The position numbers and the translations under genes are program-made. The notes beneath the pieces were generated by a model. It ran no database searches. It saw nothing but the letters and a program-made list of their open reading frames with translations, and was not told where the DNA came from. This document shows, piece after piece, positions 26,856-32,126 of a DNA stretch of 32,126 nt. The stretch's first letter is position 1. Every line of letters begins with the position of its first letter. The stretch is from the IMG/VR virus record IMGVR_UViG_3300028025_003819, positions 1 through 32,126 of that record. One strand, given 5' to 3'. The DNA is from a virus.

Positions 26856-27155
26856 CTACTTATTTTCTAGTTTGTCTAAGCGGTATTCAATACGACCAAT
26901 AGCATCTTTAATTGATGTGCCATGATTAGGTCTCATTTCAAAGGATATGCAAGCAATTTCTTCTTCCATAAACTTTAATCTTTCTTGCAGTCCAGGACGA
27001 CCATCAAATCCTGGTCTTTCTTCTTCTCCAAAATAATCATCAAGGAAGTGTATAAATCTTTTAACTAGTTTAGTAGCTTTATATAGACCAACAGTAATTA
27101 CTCCAATTGCTGTAATTGTAGCAGCTAACATCATTAGTATTTCGTTGGCGACCAT
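26856..27155 (-). CDS. Small membrane protein with coiled-coil tail (lysis or virion accessory)
   Basis: 99 residues. One transmembrane segment near residues 5-28 (MMLAATITAIGVITVGLYKATKLV) is followed by a charged soluble part with a predicted C-terminal coiled coil (IKDAIGRIEYRLDKLENK). Such N-in membrane proteins next to a holin are common in actinobacteriophage lysis regions and often called holin-like or second membrane lysis proteins. The ATG at 27155 has no clear ribosome binding site; TATAAT (27166-27161) lies 5 nt upstream and a terminator-like hairpin precedes that, suggesting its own leaderless promoter. The role is inferred. Confidence 0.65.
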   Translation of the reverse strand: MVANEILMMLAATITAIGVITVGLYKATKLVKRFIHFLDDYFGEEERPGFDGRPGLQERLKFMEEEIACISFEMRPNHGTSIKDAIGRIEYRLDKLENK

Positions 27156-27176
27156 ATTTAATTATACACTTCCAAA

Positions 27177-27198
27177 AAGACTACTTTGAGGTAGTCTT
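27177..27198 (-). terminator. Hairpin terminator at the end of the holin-like gene
   Basis: AAGACTAC and GTAGTCTT form an 8-bp stem with a 6-nt loop, overlapping the stop of the gene at 27181-27492 and followed on the minus strand by a short U-run. It separates that gene from the next. Confidence 0.5.
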
Positions 27199-27492
27199 CT
27201 TTGCTGTGGATTTTTTGGCTGGTGCCTTTGTTGGTGCTTTCTTTGTAGCAGCTTTAACTGCCTTAGTTACTTCAGCAGCAACTTCATCAGGAGTTGATTT
27301 TCCTGAGATCTTACCAAATGCAATATCGTTCTTATTGAAGTAACGAATAGCAACTGGTGCAATAGCAGCTACAAGAGCATTAAGATACAAGTATGGATCA
27401 GTAACGCCAGCTAAATATAGAGCAATTGCTGCACCCAAAAATGAGCGTCCATAAGACTGGATAATTGCTAGGTTTTCTTTTGATAAAGTCAT
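27181..27492 (-). CDS. Holin-like membrane protein with Lys/Ala-rich tail
   Basis: 103 residues, starting at ATG 27492 with AAGGA 8 nt upstream. Residues ~12-52 contain two hydrophobic segments (FLGAAIALYLAGV and YLNALVAAIAPVAIRYF) separated by a short turn. The C-terminus (from ~75) is a histone H1-like Lys, Ala, Pro and Thr run. This two-segment layout with a charged cytoplasmic tail is typical of putative holins of actinobacteriophages, which permeabilise the membrane at lysis. No endolysin gene is seen in the window except the M23 domain in the tape measure protein, so the call is by shape only. Confidence 0.6.
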   Translation of the reverse strand: MTLSKENLAIIQSYGRSFLGAAIALYLAGVTDPYLYLNALVAAIAPVAIRYFNKNDIAFGKISGKSTPDEVAAEVTKAVKAATKKAPTKAPAKKSTAKKTTSK

Positions 27493-27881
27493 TGACTTAT
27501 TCCTTTTCTGTTTGTATAATTTATCTATATATACGTTATATATATTATATATTAAATATATTTAATATTTAATATAAGTATAAAGAGATATTCTTTAATA
27601 ATATATATATTACATTATACACGGCTTTTTCAAAAATAAAAGATAAATTTTAAAAAATTTTTATATTGTTATAAAAAATTTATAATCGGCTTTTACTACT
27701 GATAAAAAATAATTTTATAATTGGCTTTGTTGGCTGATAAAAAATAAATTGTTTTTGGCTTTTAATAAAATAGATATATGCAGCTCGGCGGTCGTGGCGA
27801 AAAGAGAACCCACATACTCACATATATCATTAAAACTCGGTATAAAGCCACACGATGGCTATAGGAGGTATAATTGATAAC
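27493..27881. other. AT-rich divergent intergenic region with GGCTTTT repeats
   Basis: Almost pure A+T from 27520 to 27780 apart from GGCTTT-type words at 27623, 27688, 27723 and 27757. The units from 27688 and 27723 are 35 and 34 bp long and share CTGATAAAAAATAA (27699-27712 and 27734-27747); the preceding 65-bp interval looks like two diverged units. A GC-richer patch lies at 27781-27810. It separates the leftward holin-like gene from the rightward gene at 27882 and must hold their promoters. TATAAA at 27841-27846 is a possible -10 box for the latter. No coding frame is convincing here. Confidence 0.5.
27688..27763. repeat. Direct ~35-bp AT-rich repeats (GGCTTT...CTGATAAAAAATAA)
   Basis: Two adjacent units begin with GGCTTTT/GGCTTTG and contain the identical 14-mer CTGATAAAAAATAA; a third partial unit starts at 27757. 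The spacing is regular (35 and 34 bp). They may be protein-binding iterons or simple AT-rich duplication. Confidence 0.55.
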
Positions 27882-28088
27882 ATGAGTAACGATATGAATG
27901 AAAATCCAGGGCTTATAAATTACATTATGCTTGGGCGAATATATGATCTATTAATCCTATTATGTGATGCTCAAGGTAAAGGTGAAGATGCTTTGAAAAT
28001 CATGGAATTACATCGTCAAGGACATTTAATGTCTCCATTGCCATCTCTAGTAGGAGATATAGATAATCAGGATGATGTAGCCAATTAA
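27882..28088 (+). CDS. Small acidic protein of unknown function
   Basis: 68 residues from ATG 27882. The frame is open from an ATG at 27855, but AGGAGG lies at 27863-27868, inside that longer version and 13 nt before 27882, so the shorter form is preferred. The sequence MSNDMNENPGLINYIMLGRIYDLLILLCDAQGKGEDALKIMELHRQG is helical and amphipathic, with a Pro-rich acidic end. I do not recognise a family. The gene is on the plus strand, convergent with the Hsp20 gene and divergent from the holin-like gene. TATAAT also lies 7 nt before the ATG, but the ribosome binding site makes leaderless use less likely here. Confidence 0.65.
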   Translation: MSNDMNENPGLINYIMLGRIYDLLILLCDAQGKGEDALKIMELHRQGHLMSPLPSLVGDIDNQDDVAN

Positions 28089-28110
28089 AGCTATTGCTTT
28101 ATATAGGCAA

Positions 28111-28141
28111 ACAGAAGTTTTTCTGTCTACCCCGATTTTTT
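28111..28141 (+). terminator. Weak hairpin terminator between convergent genes
   Basis: ACAGAA and TTCTGT form a 6-bp stem with a GTTT loop, followed 9 nt later by a T-run (ACCCCGATTTTTT). It lies between the ends of the gene at 27882 and the Hsp20 gene. It is a weak candidate because the stem is AT-rich. Confidence 0.35.
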
Positions 28142-28185
28142 AAAAATAAAAATAAGCAGTTTATGGTCATGCTTAGGACCTCTTG

Positions 28186-28617
28186 CTATCCCTTTTTAGG
28201 ATTTTTGAAATCATTAATAGCAATAGACTTAGGTTTCTTTTCTTCTGGAATAACCTTTTCAATTGAAATAAATAGCATTCCATCAACAAGATGACATTCT
28301 TTTGTAACCATGTATTCTGCTAGAGAAAATGTTCTTGTGAACTTTCTACCAGCGATTCCTTTATGTAAGTATTCACCATCTGTATCAGGAAGCTCTCCTT
28401 CTACTGTCACACAGCAATCTTCTTCTGTAATGGTTAGATTTGACTTGTTATATCCAGCTACCGCCAATTCAATAACAAAGTTACTATCATCTATTTTTCT
28501 GACGTTATATGGAGGAAAGCTAGTTGCATTTGTCTTTGCTAAAGTTTCTAGCTTTGGGAAAAAGCTTTCCCATCCGATCATGTATGGGTCATTTGCCCAT
28601 GTTGTTGTATATTTCAT
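28186..28617 (-). CDS. Small heat shock protein (Hsp20/alpha-crystallin)
   Basis: 143 residues, starting at ATG 28617 behind AAGGAG with a ~6-nt spacer. Residues ~34-122 form an alpha-crystallin domain: FPPYNVRKIDDSNFVIELAVAGYNKSNLTIT, VTVEGELP, the RKFTRTFSLAEYM strand and VDGMLFISIEKVIPEEKK. A C-terminal I-x-I motif (I132-A-I134) mediates oligomer assembly. The family acts as an ATP-independent holdase for unfolded proteins, and phages of aquatic bacteria (for example T4-like cyanophages) carry it, probably to help virion assembly or protect proteins late in infection. The upstream region has a phased 11-bp repeat array and a CRP-like site that might control it. Confidence 0.9.
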   Translation of the reverse strand: MKYTTTWANDPYMIGWESFFPKLETLAKTNATSFPPYNVRKIDDSNFVIELAVAGYNKSNLTITEEDCCVTVEGELPDTDGEYLHKGIAGRKFTRTFSLAEYMVTKECHLVDGMLFISIEKVIPEEKKPKSIAINDFKNPKKG

Positions 28618-28633
28618 TTTTTGCTCCTTTTAA

Positions 28634-28813
28634 GCGAGTTAGATTCACATCCCATAAGGCAATGTGTATATATATTTTACCCCGATTTTTATTAAAGTTA
28701 CCATTTTGTTACCTATTTGTTACATTCCTGTTACATAATTATGTGATGTAGGTCACATATATATAATCTATCAAATGTAAATGTAATTTTATATTTTACA
28801 TAAGGTGTAGCTT
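28634..28813. promoter_or_regulatory. Control region with 4 x 11-bp GTTAC array and GlxR-type palindrome
   Basis: GTTAC occurs at 28697, 28708, 28719 and 28730, exactly 11 bp apart, giving four units GTTACnnnnnn over 28697-28740. It is followed directly by TGTGATGTAGGTCACA (28742-28757), an exact match to the GlxR/CRP pattern TGTGAnnTAnnTCACA, and then TATAAT (28762-28767). The 11-bp phasing is typical of OmpR/PhoB-family regulators binding direct repeats. The targets could be the Hsp20 gene to the left or a transcript to the right. Regulator identity is inferred. Confidence 0.55.
28742..28757. promoter_or_regulatory. CRP/GlxR-type binding site TGTGATGTAGGTCACA
   Basis: A palindromic 16-mer matching TGTGA-N6-TCACA, with the central TA of the actinobacterial GlxR consensus. 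It lies just upstream of TATAAT (28762-28767). Binding by a host cAMP receptor homologue is inferred. Confidence 0.55.
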
Positions 28814-28969
28814 ATGCTAATTTCAGATCTAACCCCCAAAATCTTATTGCAAAGTATTTGCAGGTCTTATTTTGAGAAAATGTTAATGATATTTTATTTT
28901 GTATGGTACACGTTTTTTGAAAGAATTGCAAAAAAAAGTAGTGAGCCCATAAGACTCACTAACTTTTGA
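28814..28969 (+). CDS. Possible 51-residue hydrophobic protein (or small RNA)
   Basis: ATG 28814 has AGGTG 7 nt upstream and opens a 51-codon frame: a polar N-terminus, then MLMIFYFVWYTFFERI, a hydrophobic aromatic stretch, and a basic end. A TATAAT (28762-28767) lies ~45 nt upstream behind the GlxR-like site. The 3' end of the frame runs through the bidirectional hairpin at 28934-28967, which is unusual for a coding gene; the same transcript could instead be a ~190-nt small RNA ending at the hairpin. AT-rich composition makes a chance frame possible. Confidence 0.3.
   Translation: MLISDLTPKILLQSICRSYFEKMLMIFYFVWYTFFERIAKKSSEPIRLTNF
28934..28967 (-). terminator. Terminator of the leftward early operon
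   Basis: AAAAGTAGTGAG pairs with CTCACTAACTTTT (one bulged A) around a 9-nt loop, and on the minus strand a long U-run follows at once. It lies 9 nt after the last small gene of the operon (stop at 28976). Because of the flanking A and T runs it may also act in the other direction. Confidence 0.75.
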
Positions 28970-28975
28970 AGCTTT

Positions 28976-29068
28976 TTATCTTGAGATGATTCCTAGAACA
29001 ACTAGTAACAAAATAATTCCTAGCAAGGTTTCCAAAATAATTCCTATCCAAACACTTCGCAAAGCCAA
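28976..29068 (-). CDS. Tiny single-helix membrane protein (30 residues)
   Basis: TTG at 29068 is preceded by AGGA with an 8-nt spacer and opens a frame reading MALRSVWIGIILETLLGIILLLVVLGIISR, a nearly complete single transmembrane helix with a basic end. It overlaps the end of the upstream membrane gene by 25 nt and is followed 9 nt later by the operon terminator, as expected for the last gene. It is too short for standard gene callers. The non-ATG start lowers confidence. Function unknown; small membrane peptides in phages can act on lysis, superinfection or host membrane proteins. Confidence 0.5.
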   Translation of the reverse strand: MALRSVWIGIILETLLGIILLLVVLGIISR

Positions 29069-29229
29069 GCACCGATTCCTGAAACAATTCCTAGGATAAG
29101 CGTTGCTAACATCAAGGCAGGGGTGACGAAACTAATTCCGATAACTAGTAATTGCAATTCAAGCAATAGTGCAGGTAATGAGAATACCGCAATGAATACC
29201 AATGGGGCTTGCAGGTTGAATAGAAACAT
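29044..29229 (-). CDS. Small membrane protein, two hydrophobic segments
   Basis: 61 residues, almost entirely hydrophobic: APLVFIAVFSLPALLLELQLLVIGISFV and PALMLATLILGIVSGIGAWLCEVFG, which would form two membrane helices with very short loops. It starts at ATG 29229 with GAGGA 6 nt upstream, and only 2 nt separate it from the stop of the 36-residue zinc-ribbon-like gene, so they form one operon. No family is recognised. A role in the host envelope during early infection is possible but not shown. Confidence 0.65.
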   Translation of the reverse strand: MFLFNLQAPLVFIAVFSLPALLLELQLLVIGISFVTPALMLATLILGIVSGIGAWLCEVFG

Positions 29230-29231
29230 AA

Positions 29232-29342
29232 TTAGTCCTCACACATAATGCAGATAGCGGATTCAATTTCAAACGGTGCTAACTTATCACCGCACACAAG
29301 GCAGGTTGCCTTAGTGATTTGTTCTAATGCTAATTCATTCAT
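29232..29342 (-). CDS. 36-residue zinc-ribbon-like protein
   Basis: Starts at ATG 29342 behind GAAAGG with a normal spacer and its own copy of the repeated early promoter. The protein reads MNELALEQITKATCLVCGDKLAPFEIESAICIMCED, with C14-x2-C17 and C31-x2-C34, a complete four-Cys zinc-binding set of the ribbon type. A second nearby ATG (29338) is in a frame that stops at once. Function unknown; proteins of this size usually work by binding a host protein or nucleic acid. Confidence 0.6.
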   Translation of the reverse strand: MNELALEQITKATCLVCGDKLAPFEIESAICIMCED

Positions 29343-29373
29343 TTGATTAGCCTTTCTTTTAGTAGGTAGTTTT

Positions 29374-29396
29374 AATCTAGCAGGGAGGTCTGACAG
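29374..29396 (-). promoter_or_regulatory. Repeated early promoter, copy for the 36-residue gene
   Basis: On the minus strand CTGTCAGACC is followed by TGC-TAGATT with the hexamer starting 17 nt after the block begins, exactly as in the other copies. It begins just after the stop of the upstream Cys-rich gene, and the ATG is 31 nt beyond the -10. Confidence 0.65.
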
Positions 29397-29398
29397 TT

Positions 29399-29638
29399 TC
29401 AGCAGAAACAGTCAGCACTCTCACCGCAGGTATCGCATAGGGCGTATTCGCAATCCACGCCCTCGTGTTCATACCAACCGCAATCCTCGCAGAATTCCAC
29501 GATTAGGCAATCGGTTGCCTGTAGGCAATCTACACACACATTGTGTGTGTATTCTTCAAAACCTACAACTTTTACAGTCTGTAGGGCTGATGCCATTTCG
29601 CACCATTCGCAAATTTCTTGCTTAGTAATAGTTAACAT
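29399..29638 (-). CDS. Cys-rich zinc-binding protein of unknown function
   Basis: 79 residues with 12 cysteines, mostly in CxxC pairs: C10/C13, C35/C38, C50/C53 and C68/C71, plus C44, C63, C77 and C79. This suggests two or more zinc sites. It is acidic overall. It starts at ATG 29638 behind AGAAAGGG and a copy of the repeated early promoter (29670-29692). It is the first gene of the leftward early unit. No named family is recognised; Cys-rich early proteins of phages often bind host transcription or translation factors, but that is only a possibility here. Confidence 0.65.
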   Translation of the reverse strand: MLTITKQEICEWCEMASALQTVKVVGFEEYTHNVCVDCLQATDCLIVEFCEDCGWYEHEGVDCEYALCDTCGESADCFC

Positions 29639-29669
29639 TTAACTACCCTTTCTTTTATCTAATACTCTA

Positions 29670-29692
29670 AAGTTAGCATACCCCACTGACAA
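29670..29692 (-). promoter_or_regulatory. Repeated early promoter, copy for the 79-residue gene
   Basis: On the minus strand TTGTCAG is followed by TGC-TAACTT at the standard distance (hexamer 29675-29670). The second half of the block (TGGGG) differs from the GACC of other copies. It drives the leftward unit away from the DnaA-box region. Confidence 0.6.
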
Positions 29693-29729
29693 TTTCTGCC
29701 ATTTGGGGCGTGTTTCTCTAATTATTTTT

Positions 29730-29745
29730 TGTGATGTACACCACA
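29730..29745. promoter_or_regulatory. Second CRP/GlxR-like site
   Basis: TGTGATGTACACCACA matches the GlxR-type pattern TGTGAnnTAnnTCACA with one mismatch. Its first nine bases are identical to the exact site at 28742. It lies beside the first DnaA box and upstream of the leftward early promoter. Confidence 0.45.
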
Positions 29746-29950
29746 CTACTTATCCACAACTTATACACAGACCTGTGGATAACGTTATACACATGTGTAT
29801 AACCTGTGGAAAACGTGCCCGACTGTTTCGGGCGTGTCGCAATTAAGATGCATTAAAAATCTCACTGGAAATCACGAGAATATTATAACAATTTTATAAA
29901 CTACGGCGTGTCTACTTGACAGCATAAGCTGTGGATAACCTGTGGATTAT

Positions 29951-29972
29951 TGTTAACCTAATGTTAACCTAA
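29951..29972 (+). repeat. Tandem 11-bp repeat TGTTAACCTAA x2
   Basis: Two identical 11-mers lie head to tail just after the last DnaA-like box and 24 nt before the rightward promoter block. The period equals that of the GTTAC array at 28697-28740 and the units are similar, so the same regulator could bind both. Confidence 0.6.
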
Positions 29973-29995
29973 GACACACCCCTAAATGAGCAAAA

Positions 29996-30018
29996 TTGTC
30001 AGACCTCTAGTGTATGCT
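29996..30018 (+). promoter_or_regulatory. Repeated early promoter, copy for the gene at 30052
   Basis: TTGTCAGACC followed by TATGCT (30013-30018) at the standard distance. Here the bases before the hexamer are GTG instead of TGn. AACGAAAGG precedes the ATG. Confidence 0.65.
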
Positions 30019-30051
30019 GAAAGCATAGAACAAAACGAAAGGTAGACCAAA

Positions 30052-30210
30052 ATGGCTTACACTAAATTAAAAAATTCATTCCTGCTAGTAGATGCTTACA
30101 AGGAATTAGAAATTGCTAAAGAAACTGCCCTGCAATTCCCTGCCCACCAAATTATGGTTGAGTATTGGGAAATCAAAATTAAAGAATTGACTAAGCGTGT
30201 CTACGGGTAA
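30052..30210 (+). CDS. 52-residue protein of unknown function
   Basis: ATG 30052 is preceded by ACGAAAGG with a normal spacer and by a full copy of the repeated early promoter. The protein is small, helical and amphipathic (FLLVDAYKELEIAKETALQF, then MVEYWEIKIKELTKRV), ending in Tyr-Gly. No Cys and no membrane segment. No family is recognised. It is the first gene of the rightward early region, next to the origin-like DNA. The gene is supported by its promoter, ribosome binding site and the absence of other coding frames. Confidence 0.6.
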   Translation: MAYTKLKNSFLLVDAYKELEIAKETALQFPAHQIMVEYWEIKIKELTKRVYG

Positions 30211-30212
30211 AA

Positions 30213-30235
30213 CTGTCAGACCCTTATGCTAAAGT
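30213..30235 (+). promoter_or_regulatory. Repeated early promoter, copy for the gene at 30267
   Basis: CTGTCAGACC then TGC-TAAAGT (30230-30235), an extended -10 at the standard distance. It starts 2 nt after the preceding stop codon. AAAGAAAGAGG precedes the next ATG. Confidence 0.65.
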
Positions 30236-30266
30236 AAAACTACTAAACAAAAAGAAAGAGGTCACT

Positions 30267-30476
30267 ATGACTTACTTAGAGATAATAGAGGAAGTGACTA
30301 CCCCAATGGGTAACACATTCCTAAACACCATTCGCTACTATGACGAATGTGAGATTTGCCAATCTGCTATGGCTAAAGGTGAGATGCCTTTCATCTCTCA
30401 CGATAACTGCCTTTACAAGGGTAAGCGTAGTATCGGTCATTCACTTGCACACTGTACCGCAGGGAGTTGCTACTAA
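30267..30476 (+). CDS. Small zinc-binding protein
   Basis: 69 residues. Starts at ATG 30267 behind GAAAGAGG. Cys and His are spaced as C28-x2-C31, H45-x2-C48, then H58, H62-C63 and C68, so one or two zinc sites are likely. The C-terminal pattern KRSIGHSLAHCTAGSCY looks like those of small zinc-binding proteins in other actinobacteriophages, as I recall them. The stop overlaps the start of the next small Cys-rich gene (TAATG), so the two are co-translated and may act together. Function unknown. Confidence 0.7.
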   Translation: MTYLEIIEEVTTPMGNTFLNTIRYYDECEICQSAMAKGEMPFISHDNCLYKGKRSIGHSLAHCTAGSCY

Positions 30477-30607
30477 TGAATAGATGCGAAAACTGTGATG
30501 AGTGGTCAGAGTGGAAATCCTGCCCTGCCTGTGATGAATCTATCTGTGGCTATTGTGTCTACTATGTAGAGCAAGACCTAACCAGTTGCGACAGATTAGG
30601 TCACTAA
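30476..30607 (+). CDS. 43-residue zinc-ribbon/B-box-like protein
   Basis: The ATG overlaps the stop of the preceding gene (TAATG). The protein MNRCENCDEWSEWKSCPACD... has C4-x2-C7, C16-x2-C19 and C24-x2-C27, plus C38: three CxxC pairs in 24 residues, an arrangement seen in zinc ribbons and B-box or RING-like fragments. It is acidic and too short for an enzyme. It shares the transcript of the gene at 30267. Function unknown; protein binding is the likeliest use. Confidence 0.6.
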   Translation: MNRCENCDEWSEWKSCPACDESICGYCVYYVEQDLTSCDRLGH

Positions 30608-30610
30608 AAA

Positions 30611-30633
30611 CTGTCAGACCTCTCTGATAGTAT
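30611..30633 (+). promoter_or_regulatory. Repeated early promoter, copy for the gene at 30671
   Basis: CTGTCAGACC followed by TGA-TAGTAT (30628-30633), an extended -10 at the standard distance. It begins 3 nt after the preceding stop, and ACGAAAGG precedes the next ATG. Confidence 0.7.
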
Positions 30634-30670
30634 CAACTTAACAAACTAACAAAAACGAAAGGTGGTCACA

Positions 30671-30895
30671 ATGACTACACTAAACACCAAAGACTTTCTA
30701 GAGTCTTACAAGGCTTTGCAAAGTGCAAAGTATCCAATGCTAAACACAAATGAACACGTTGTGCTTTCAGCCATTCTAAGTGTTTCAATTGAATGGGAAA
30801 AGTCAGTTGATGACGTTCAGAAATTACTAGACAAGAAAACTCAAGAACAAAAACTTGAACTACAATTCTTTCAAAATGCAAAGGCAGGAAAATAA
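30671..30895 (+). CDS. 74-residue protein of unknown function
   Basis: ATG 30671 is preferred: AAAGG lies 8 nt upstream, while the in-frame GTG at 30662 overlaps that site. The protein is helical and charged (TKDFLESYKALQSAKYPML, then VVLSAILSVSIEWEKSVDDVQKLLDKKTQEQKLELQFFQNAKAGK), with a possible C-terminal coiled coil. No Cys or membrane segment. It is the first gene of a four-gene unit (30671-31222) that ends in a strong terminator. No family is recognised. Confidence 0.65.
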   Translation: MTTLNTKDFLESYKALQSAKYPMLNTNEHVVLSAILSVSIEWEKSVDDVQKLLDKKTQEQKLELQFFQNAKAGK

Positions 30896-31078
30896 ATGAT
30901 GACACGCAAAGACTACATAGCAACTGCAAAGATTTTTAATTCTTATGCAGAAGCAGGACAAGACAACATTTTAATTTCATCACTTGTAAAAAGTATCGCA
31001 GAAGATTTTGCAGATTTATTTGCAAGCGATAATCCAAACTTTGATGAGCAAAAGTTTTTAGATGCGGTAGGTGTGTGA
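30896..31078 (+). CDS. 60-residue acidic protein of unknown function
   Basis: ATG 30896 follows the previous stop without a gap, with GGCAGGA 6 nt upstream; a second ATG follows immediately and either could be used. The sequence RKDYIATAKIFNSYAEAGQDNILISSLVKSIAEDFADLFASDNPNFDEQKFLDAVGV is acidic, helical and ends in a motif often seen in small early actinobacteriophage proteins (NPNFDxxKFLxAxG), as I recall it. Its stop overlaps the ATG of the next tiny gene (TGATG). Function unknown. Confidence 0.7.
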   Translation: MMTRKDYIATAKIFNSYAEAGQDNILISSLVKSIAEDFADLFASDNPNFDEQKFLDAVGV

Positions 31079-31152
31079 TGAATAGTTTTTATTCTTGGAT
31101 TTTAATTTTATCCCTTGCAAGTTTTATTTTTTTAATCGGACAGGAAAAATAA
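31078..31152 (+). CDS. 24-residue single-helix membrane peptide
   Basis: ATG overlaps the upstream stop (TGATG). The peptide MNSFYSWILILSLASFIFLIGQEK is one membrane helix with a short polar end. It lies between a clear gene and another tiny membrane frame, within the same transcript. It is far below the size limit of gene finders. Translational coupling and composition support it. Function unknown; similar peptides can act as small toxins or subunits of membrane complexes. Confidence 0.5.
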   Translation: MNSFYSWILILSLASFIFLIGQEK

Positions 31153-31153
31153 A

Positions 31154-31222
31154 TTGGAAATACTTTTGATGATAATTCTTAGCCTTGTTGTAATTGGTTT
31201 AGTTTCTAATTACACCGATTGA
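31154..31222 (+). CDS. 22-residue single-helix membrane peptide
   Basis: TTG at 31154 has AGGA 8 nt upstream and opens MEILLMIILSLVVIGLVSNYTD, again a single hydrophobic helix; an internal ATG (31169) would give 17 residues. It is the last frame before the strong terminator at 31240. The non-ATG start and very small size make it uncertain, but a tiny membrane frame just before the terminator mirrors the leftward early operon. Confidence 0.4.
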   Translation: MEILLMIILSLVVIGLVSNYTD

Positions 31223-31239
31223 AAATTAAAATAAAAAAG

Positions 31240-31271
31240 CTGGGGTGTCGCTTGACATTCCAGATTTTTTT
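31240..31271 (+). terminator. Intrinsic terminator of the rightward early operon
   Basis: CTGGGGTGTC pairs with GACATTCCAG (10 bp, two G-U pairs) around a GCTT loop, followed by A and seven T residues: a textbook rho-independent terminator, 18 nt after the last small frame. Confidence 0.85.
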
Positions 31272-31340
31272 GCCCGAGCCCATTTTAGCCTAGAAGTCAA
31301 TTACGACACGATTAAAATAACACTGGAAATATCACCAAAA

Positions 31341-31363
31341 TTGTCACACCCTTGTGCTAGTAT
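31341..31363 (+). promoter_or_regulatory. Repeated early promoter, copy for the gene at 31394
   Basis: TTGTCACACC followed by TGC-TAGTAT (31358-31363) at the standard distance. Here the usual CAGACC reads CACACC. The upstream CACTGGAAAT and ATCACCAAAA words recur near other copies. Confidence 0.7.
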
Positions 31364-31393
31364 CAGAGATACCTACTAAGAAATGAGAACGAC

Positions 31394-31927
31394 ATGACAT
31401 ACACAACTCTATACCGCAACATTGCTAAGACCGCAACACCTGCACAAATTGAACAAGCAACGCAATGGTATGCAGATGCAGAATTGTTGGCTAGTGATCT
31501 AATCAGAATTTACCAATCACGAGGTATTAGCGTTACATTAGAAAATACCGCTAGTGTTATTTCATCATTCTCACCACGTCAACGTTGGAATCGCAACATG
31601 GTGCAAGCGTTAGAGTTTGCTCATGGAGGTGAACCAAAAGGTTTAAAGAATAATCTACGCATGGCACAACAATCACAAGAAATTGGTTTTGATGCACTTA
31701 AAGGTCAAAAGACAAATGCATTCGCAAGAGCAATCGCAGGTGATGATGATGCCGTAACAATTGATGTGTGGATGTGTTATGCAGCAGGGCTAGACACTAA
31801 CGCACCTAACAAAACACAATACCGAGAATTATCTGAGGCTGTTAGAATTATTGCAAGCGAAATGAAAATGACACCTAGAGTTATGCAAGCCCTGATCTGG
31901 ATTATCTACAGGGGCAGTGCAGCTTGA
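31394..31927 (+). CDS. HhH-GPD-like protein (possible DNA glycosylase-related)
   Basis: 177 residues, starting at ATG 31394 with its own early promoter. The order of motifs resembles helix-hairpin-helix DNA glycosylases: a helical N-terminus, SVISSFSPRQRWNRNMVQAL (58-72), the hairpin-like ALKGQKTNAFARAIAG (101-116), then DDDAVTIDVWMCYAAGLD (117-134), where D124 occupies the place of the catalytic Asp that follows the hairpin, and a C-terminal helical part. The usual catalytic Lys and iron-sulfur Cys cluster are not evident. Small proteins with this SPRxRWxxN...AVTIDxW pattern are widespread in actinobacteriophages but uncharacterised, as far as I recall. A role in base repair or modified-DNA recognition is inference. 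Confidence 0.6.
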   Translation: MTYTTLYRNIAKTATPAQIEQATQWYADAELLASDLIRIYQSRGISVTLENTASVISSFSPRQRWNRNMVQALEFAHGGEPKGLKNNLRMAQQSQEIGFDALKGQKTNAFARAIAGDDDAVTIDVWMCYAAGLDTNAPNKTQYRELSEAVRIIASEMKMTPRVMQALIWIIYRGSAA

Positions 31928-32064
31928 CAGAGCCACCGAAAGGTGCTCGGGCGTGTCGTTGCCAAAAATTAATTAAGGTATTACTAAGAAATCACGAGAA
32001 TCACCAGAAAATTGTCAGACCCCTATGCTATGCTATGAGCATACCTACAAACGAAAGGAACACT
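31928..32064 (+). promoter_or_regulatory. Intergenic region with hairpin, repeated blocks and early promoter
   Basis: A GAAA-tetraloop hairpin (31930-31948, 7 bp with one bulge) is followed by TCGGGCGTGTCG (31947-31958) and GAAATCACGAGAAT (31988-32001), both also present at 29828-29839 and 29868-29881 with almost the same spacing. The promoter block TTGTCAGACC and TGC-TATGCT (32012-32034) follows, then ACGAAAGG before the ATG at 32065. Confidence 0.65.
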
Positions 32065-32126
32065 ATGTTCACTTTACACAACCCAATGAAAGTGATGAAC
32101 GAACGCTACGTTGTTACATCACACCC
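32065..32126 (+). CDS. N-terminus of an early protein (runs off right edge)
   Basis: ATG 32065 is preceded by ACGAAAGGA with a normal spacer and by a complete copy of the repeated early promoter. Only about 20 residues are visible (MFTLHNPMKVMNERYVVTSH...), with no stop before the window edge. The product cannot be named from this fragment. Confidence 0.55.
   Translation, partial: MFTLHNPMKVMNERYVVTSH

Follow-up and report, generated by a model that had tools for sequence, protein, structure and literature searches.

DnaA boxes lie beside short direct repeats in the iteron plasmid origins, such as those of P1 and pSC101. In bacterial oriC regions, including those of 'Ca. Planktophila' and Bacillus subtilis, TTATCCACA boxes, partly arranged as 11-bp tandems, are found near AT-rich DNA, and a DnaA-trio tract beside a box pair is a feature of the BUS (PMC8287927). 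The actinobacterial PHO box, the operator of PhoP, is built from two directly repeated units of 11 nt, whose core in S. coelicolor is GTTCACC (PMC4415409). Among phages, a predicted Ori-Finder origin with DnaA boxes has been described in a Pseudomonas phage (PMC11512268), and in cyanophage S-PM2d PhoB binds the DNA polymerase promoter (PMC10976474). Pho boxes are thus already known from cyanophages (PMC10976474), and DnaA boxes from plasmid replicons. The open-access literature searched yielded no DnaA/PHO composite in fixed register.

The locus considered here belongs to the 32,126-bp IMG/VR virus record IMGVR_UViG_3300028025_003819, which was analysed over its full length (the window; 37% GC). 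Large leftward genes, including those for portal, capsid and ribonucleotide reductase, occupy 1–29.6 kb, and small rightward genes follow from 30,052 on. The first leftward gene, 29399–29638(−), encodes a Cys-rich protein of 79 aa; the first rightward early gene, 30052–30210(+), encodes 52 aa and is kept beside the cluster in relatives. Between these divergent ORFs lies a 413-bp ORF-free gap that houses a cluster of DnaA boxes, consistent with the gene-free, divergent setting described in the initial annotation. Judging from sequence patterns and their conservation, we give an even chance to the reading that 29.69–30.02 kb is a combined replication origin and early control locus of an actinophage that employs host DnaA and PhoP. 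No tRNAs were found in the window, and the interval 27000–32126 has no Rfam matches.

Exact TTWTNCACA matches occur at seven positions in the cluster. Six of them, 29750+, 29761+, 29774−, 29785+, 29794− and 29805−, make up group A (29750–29813), which also holds an exact 18-bp palindrome of facing boxes, TTATACACATGTGTATAA, at 29785–29802. The seventh, at 29930−, forms with the near-match TAATCCACA at 29941− the tandem of group B (29930–29951, minus strand), in which TTATCCACA (29930–29938) and TAATCCACA (29941–29949) are 11 bp apart, an arrangement that recurs in relatives. The eight boxes, the palindrome and a nearby AT-rich stretch, all part of the initial annotation, are therefore present, but TTATCCACA occurs in three copies (29750, 29774 and 29930) rather than two. 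The AT-rich stretch, 29850–29899 (24% GC), lies between the box groups and is a candidate unwinding site. Over the whole window TTWTNCACA shows a mild excess (11 observed versus 6.5 expected), yet 7 of the 11 sites fall inside 190 bp, compared with a maximum of 3 per 190 bp in 1000 dinucleotide shuffles, and no comparable box density exists elsewhere in the 32,126-bp record. The cluster is genuine and lies well above anything that chance would give. Directly to the right of group A there is a GC-rich inverted repeat, GCCCGA-N5-TCGGGC (29817–29833), whose version in contig L007 keeps and lengthens the stem and has a different loop.

Relatives were gathered with the early gene 31394–31927, which is a DUF7178 gene, yielding 18 related contigs. 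Of 13 records searched, 12 have tandem boxes with a 2-bp spacer (at most two mismatches); controls with the reversed pattern gave counts close to zero. Most relatives have a single dense cluster in a gene gap, with sparser boxes in G008, G009 and G011, and boxes or the composite described below occupy the same interval, marked by homologues of the small genes at 29047 and 30052, in G000, G001, G002, G003, G004, G008, G009 and G078. In a set chosen by capsid protein, 5 of 12 records carry tandem boxes. No cluster occurs in the roughly 240 kb of three negatives of that set (G083, G084 and G085), which stop at or before the Hsp20 gene and thus lack the early region. On these comparisons, the cluster is conserved among those relatives whose contigs include the early region. 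In a four-way alignment, the proportion of invariant columns is 89% for the group-B boxes, 82% for the adjoining 11-mers and 92% for the TGTCAGACC motif, versus 32% for the rest; it is only 52% for the group-A boxes because their spacing drifts, as the spacing of binding sites is seen to do.

The best capsid-protein relatives are Streptomyces phages (Genie2 and Jay2Jay, about 40%) and the best DUF7178 relatives are mycobacteriophages, which together with the 37% GC suggests a low-GC freshwater actinobacterial host, plausibly 'Ca. Planktophila'. WhiB is encoded in 9 of 14 records, among them the nearest relative, G001, and is not encoded in the window fragment itself; these phages are actinophages. 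With a published acI probe (PMC3699509) we gathered 'Ca. Planktophila' and related genomes, whose dnaA regions carry TTATCCACA boxes, 11 bp apart in some genomes. The presumed host type of oriC thus has the same box and the same 11-bp tandem as the phage. The two also differ: a DnaA-trio tract is visible in a host oriC (TTACTACTACTACC), whereas none is clear by inspection beside the window boxes; the phage locus has no nearby dnaA gene; it has a PHO box, which the host oriC regions lack; and the phage has its own helicase and polymerase.

Every tested relative longer than 79 kb encodes DnaB_C and Pol III alpha; the pair is present in G002, G005, G006, G008, Genie2 and Jay2Jay. G002 additionally has RecA, a primase of the DnaG type and a weak match to RuvC. 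None of 13 phage records showed DnaA domain IV, no DciA-type helicase loader was found in the six phages searched, and no Rep-family initiator was among the matches listed for the G002 ORFs scanned. These phages therefore appear to bring most of a replisome without a recognised initiator. Host DnaA very likely binds the cluster, and a host-DnaA platform is well supported by the patterns described above. Of the original proposal, recruitment of host DnaA is backed by the host-type box, the failure to find a phage DnaA in phages that do encode a helicase and a polymerase, and the conservation, and the phage origin is what we infer beyond that. The boxes could instead be sites of a phage protein whose target by chance resembles a DnaA box, and the many small early proteins of unknown family offer candidates. 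We regard this as very improbable, as the 9-mer, like its variant forms (N at position 5, TTTTCCACA and TAATCCACA), agrees with the consensus for DnaA and with the boxes of the host oriC, and no DnaA-like DNA-binding domain was detected in the phage records searched.

The tandem 11-mers of the initial annotation, regarded there as part of the origin, do exist at 29952–29973 (+; GTTAACCTAAT GTTAACCTAAG), but are best read, from pattern and from host loci, as a host-type PHO box. They match the actinobacterial pattern GTTNACC-N4-GTTNACC, and two 11-nt direct repeats with a GTTNACC core likewise stand upstream of host phoU/phoR and pstS-like genes. The phage pattern was run against 11 acI-type genomes and a PHO pattern against 61 genomes of the order, and overlapping results were merged. 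The matches fell at 12 distinct places, all 12 of which adjoin phoU (10) or a pstS-like gene (2). At the ten PhoU-adjoining places a PhoR-type kinase lies on the opposite side wherever tested, and the other two precede a PstS-like binding protein. Only a minority of the host genomes match at the stringency used, so the host PHO consensus is probably looser. Other identities for the 11-mers were considered and set aside: neither DnaA-trios nor Rep iterons are supported, since the host pho loci explain the 11-mers better, and a GlnR site was rejected because all host matches are at pho genes. The locus resembles the iteron plasmid origins in having DnaA boxes that adjoin short direct repeats, and it departs from them in that there are only two 11-mers, of the same kind as the host PHO box.

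Unlike at the host pho loci, the phage PHO box abuts DnaA boxes in constant register. The composite 29930–29973 reads box-box-PHO-PHO in 11-bp register (TGTGGATAACC TGTGGATTATT GTTAACCTAAT GTTAACCTAAG) and recurs in distant relatives. Across the phage family there are 16 PHO-type repeats, versus 2 for the reversed control; an exact DnaA box is no more than 50 bp away from 15 of them and no more than 55 bp away from all 16, compared with 1.6% of random positions at the 50-bp limit, although the phage genomes are related and these are not 16 independent events. When viral sites were sought by the 11-mers alone, 15 of 23 distinct sites abutted a DnaA-like 9-mer (at most two mismatches). The PHO box is absent in G006, G010 and Genie2 and was not found in G081. 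The conserved position and register bear on whether the array merely titrates DnaA, soaking up the host protein as phage copies rise and so stopping host initiation. Many boxes per genome would suit such a role and any box arrangement would do, but titration needs neither a conserved position between the same genes nor a constant 11-bp PHO register, and we consider it unlikely.

The interval 29996–30028 (+), upstream of the first rightward gene, contains a promoter-like motif, TTGTCAGACC, with the small dyad TATGCT-GAA-AGCATA after it. A putative left-facing counterpart of its TTGTCAG motif, an inverted repeat conserved in the alignment, is found at 29680–29696 (−; CTGACAATTT on the + strand). 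In most family copies, the TGTCAGACC promoter-like motif follows the PHO box at 26–27 bp. Copies of TGTCAGACC recur in the window at 29387(−), 29997, 30214, 30612, 31342 (one mismatch) and 32013, upstream of small early genes and often with a small dyad after them; among them, a PHO box accompanies just the one at 29997. The recurring motif is probably a phage early promoter or activator motif. Folding at the early transcript start was no better than for shuffles. Because the 11-mers are best read as a PHO box whose distance to the promoter-like motif is fixed, control of early transcription is probably part of the function of the locus, and the fixed geometry of its right edge suggests that this includes control of the promoter by PhoP, perhaps with DnaA.

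It is possible, if on balance doubtful, that the locus is a transcription hub only, at which DnaA and PhoP act as transcription factors on divergent early promoters while replication starts from an unrecognised phage initiator elsewhere. The fixed box-box-PHO-PHO geometry relative to the promoter-like motif would fit such a hub, as would the composites of G004, which point outward toward both operons, and the many small early proteins of unknown family. However, 7–10 boxes in 200 bp exceed what a promoter would need, and G006, G010 and G007 have dense clusters with no nearby PHO box. The group-A boxes, loosely arranged beside AT-rich DNA, fit an origin rather than a promoter, and we therefore favor the combined origin and control locus; on these sequence features the cluster is likely to be a replication origin.

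From the cluster, its conservation, the host-box match, the failure to find a phage DnaA, the pattern-based PHO identity and the fixed geometry, we infer protein binding, unwinding, origin activity and a phosphate response at this combined locus. In such a mechanism, host DnaA would assemble on the box array and most likely open the neighboring AT-rich DNA, and phage replication would be started at the opened site by the phage's own proteins, namely the DnaB-type helicase, the primase and the Pol III alpha that long relatives encode. At the right-edge composite, host PhoP~P, alone or with DnaA, would set the strength of the rightward early promoter, so that early expression, and perhaps initiation too, would respond to host phosphate starvation. 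A stronger version, which we offer tentatively and think rather improbable as a whole, is a phosphate-gated viral origin. Host DnaA and PhoP~P would act on one composite in helical register, replication or early transcription would track both the replication state and the phosphorus status of the host, and the strategy would be common to several freshwater actinophage groups.

The cumulative GC-skew minimum of the window, at 30148, agrees with an origin in this region, but GC skew follows gene direction, as seen in G006, and does not provide independent evidence. The boxes of Genie2 and G006 coincide with a maximum of the cumulative GC skew, either global or local. GC skew was accordingly rejected as proof of an origin, given its dependence on gene direction and the opposite sign in Genie2. 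Stanwilliamsviridae such as Genie2 and Jay2Jay, the nearest isolates by capsid protein, share the DnaB_C and Pol III alpha genes with the phages of this family; they differ from the present locus in having only two boxes, no PHO box, mostly convergent genes and a GC-skew maximum. In the Streptomyces Karimacvirus phages, a facing pair of TTATCCACA-type boxes is conserved in a 0.9-kb gene-free gap (L025:6001–6033, equivalent to Genie2 118809–118841; L229–L233). The cumulative maximum in Genie2 (118918) is at most 110 bp from this facing pair. The idea that the Genie2 'glycosylase' and the DUF7178 gene are syntenic was rejected, as the two show no homology.

The acI group of low-GC actinobacteria ranks with the most abundant bacteria of fresh water, in habitats that are often phosphorus-limited. 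A locus in which host DnaA boxes and a host PHO box are combined would link lytic infection with nutrient status through DNA sites alone, and suggests that the virus senses both the replication and the nutrient state of its host at a single site. It also offers short, testable sequences bearing on where and when replication of an environmental phage starts, a question seldom answered. Like the cyanophage Pho boxes of S-PM2d and P-SSM2, it would be a case of phage DNA using the host phosphate regulator, but the host phylum and the Pho consensus are different, and the passages of PMC10976474 considered here report no DnaA boxes with the cyanophage sites.

In IMG/VR as a whole, TTATCCACA tandems occur in at least 120 stretches, versus 2 for the reversed control, suggesting that DnaA-box arrays may be common in viral contigs, some of which are perhaps prophage, plasmid or host DNA. 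Among 80 fetched viral contigs with a TTATCCACA tandem (L100–L179), 35 have at least four boxes in 300 bp, with up to 11. PHO-type repeats also precede many genes in other viral contigs, namely L252 (at least eight sites in 7.3 kb), L248 and L249, where they often comprise three units, as if the whole phage were under Pho-type control.
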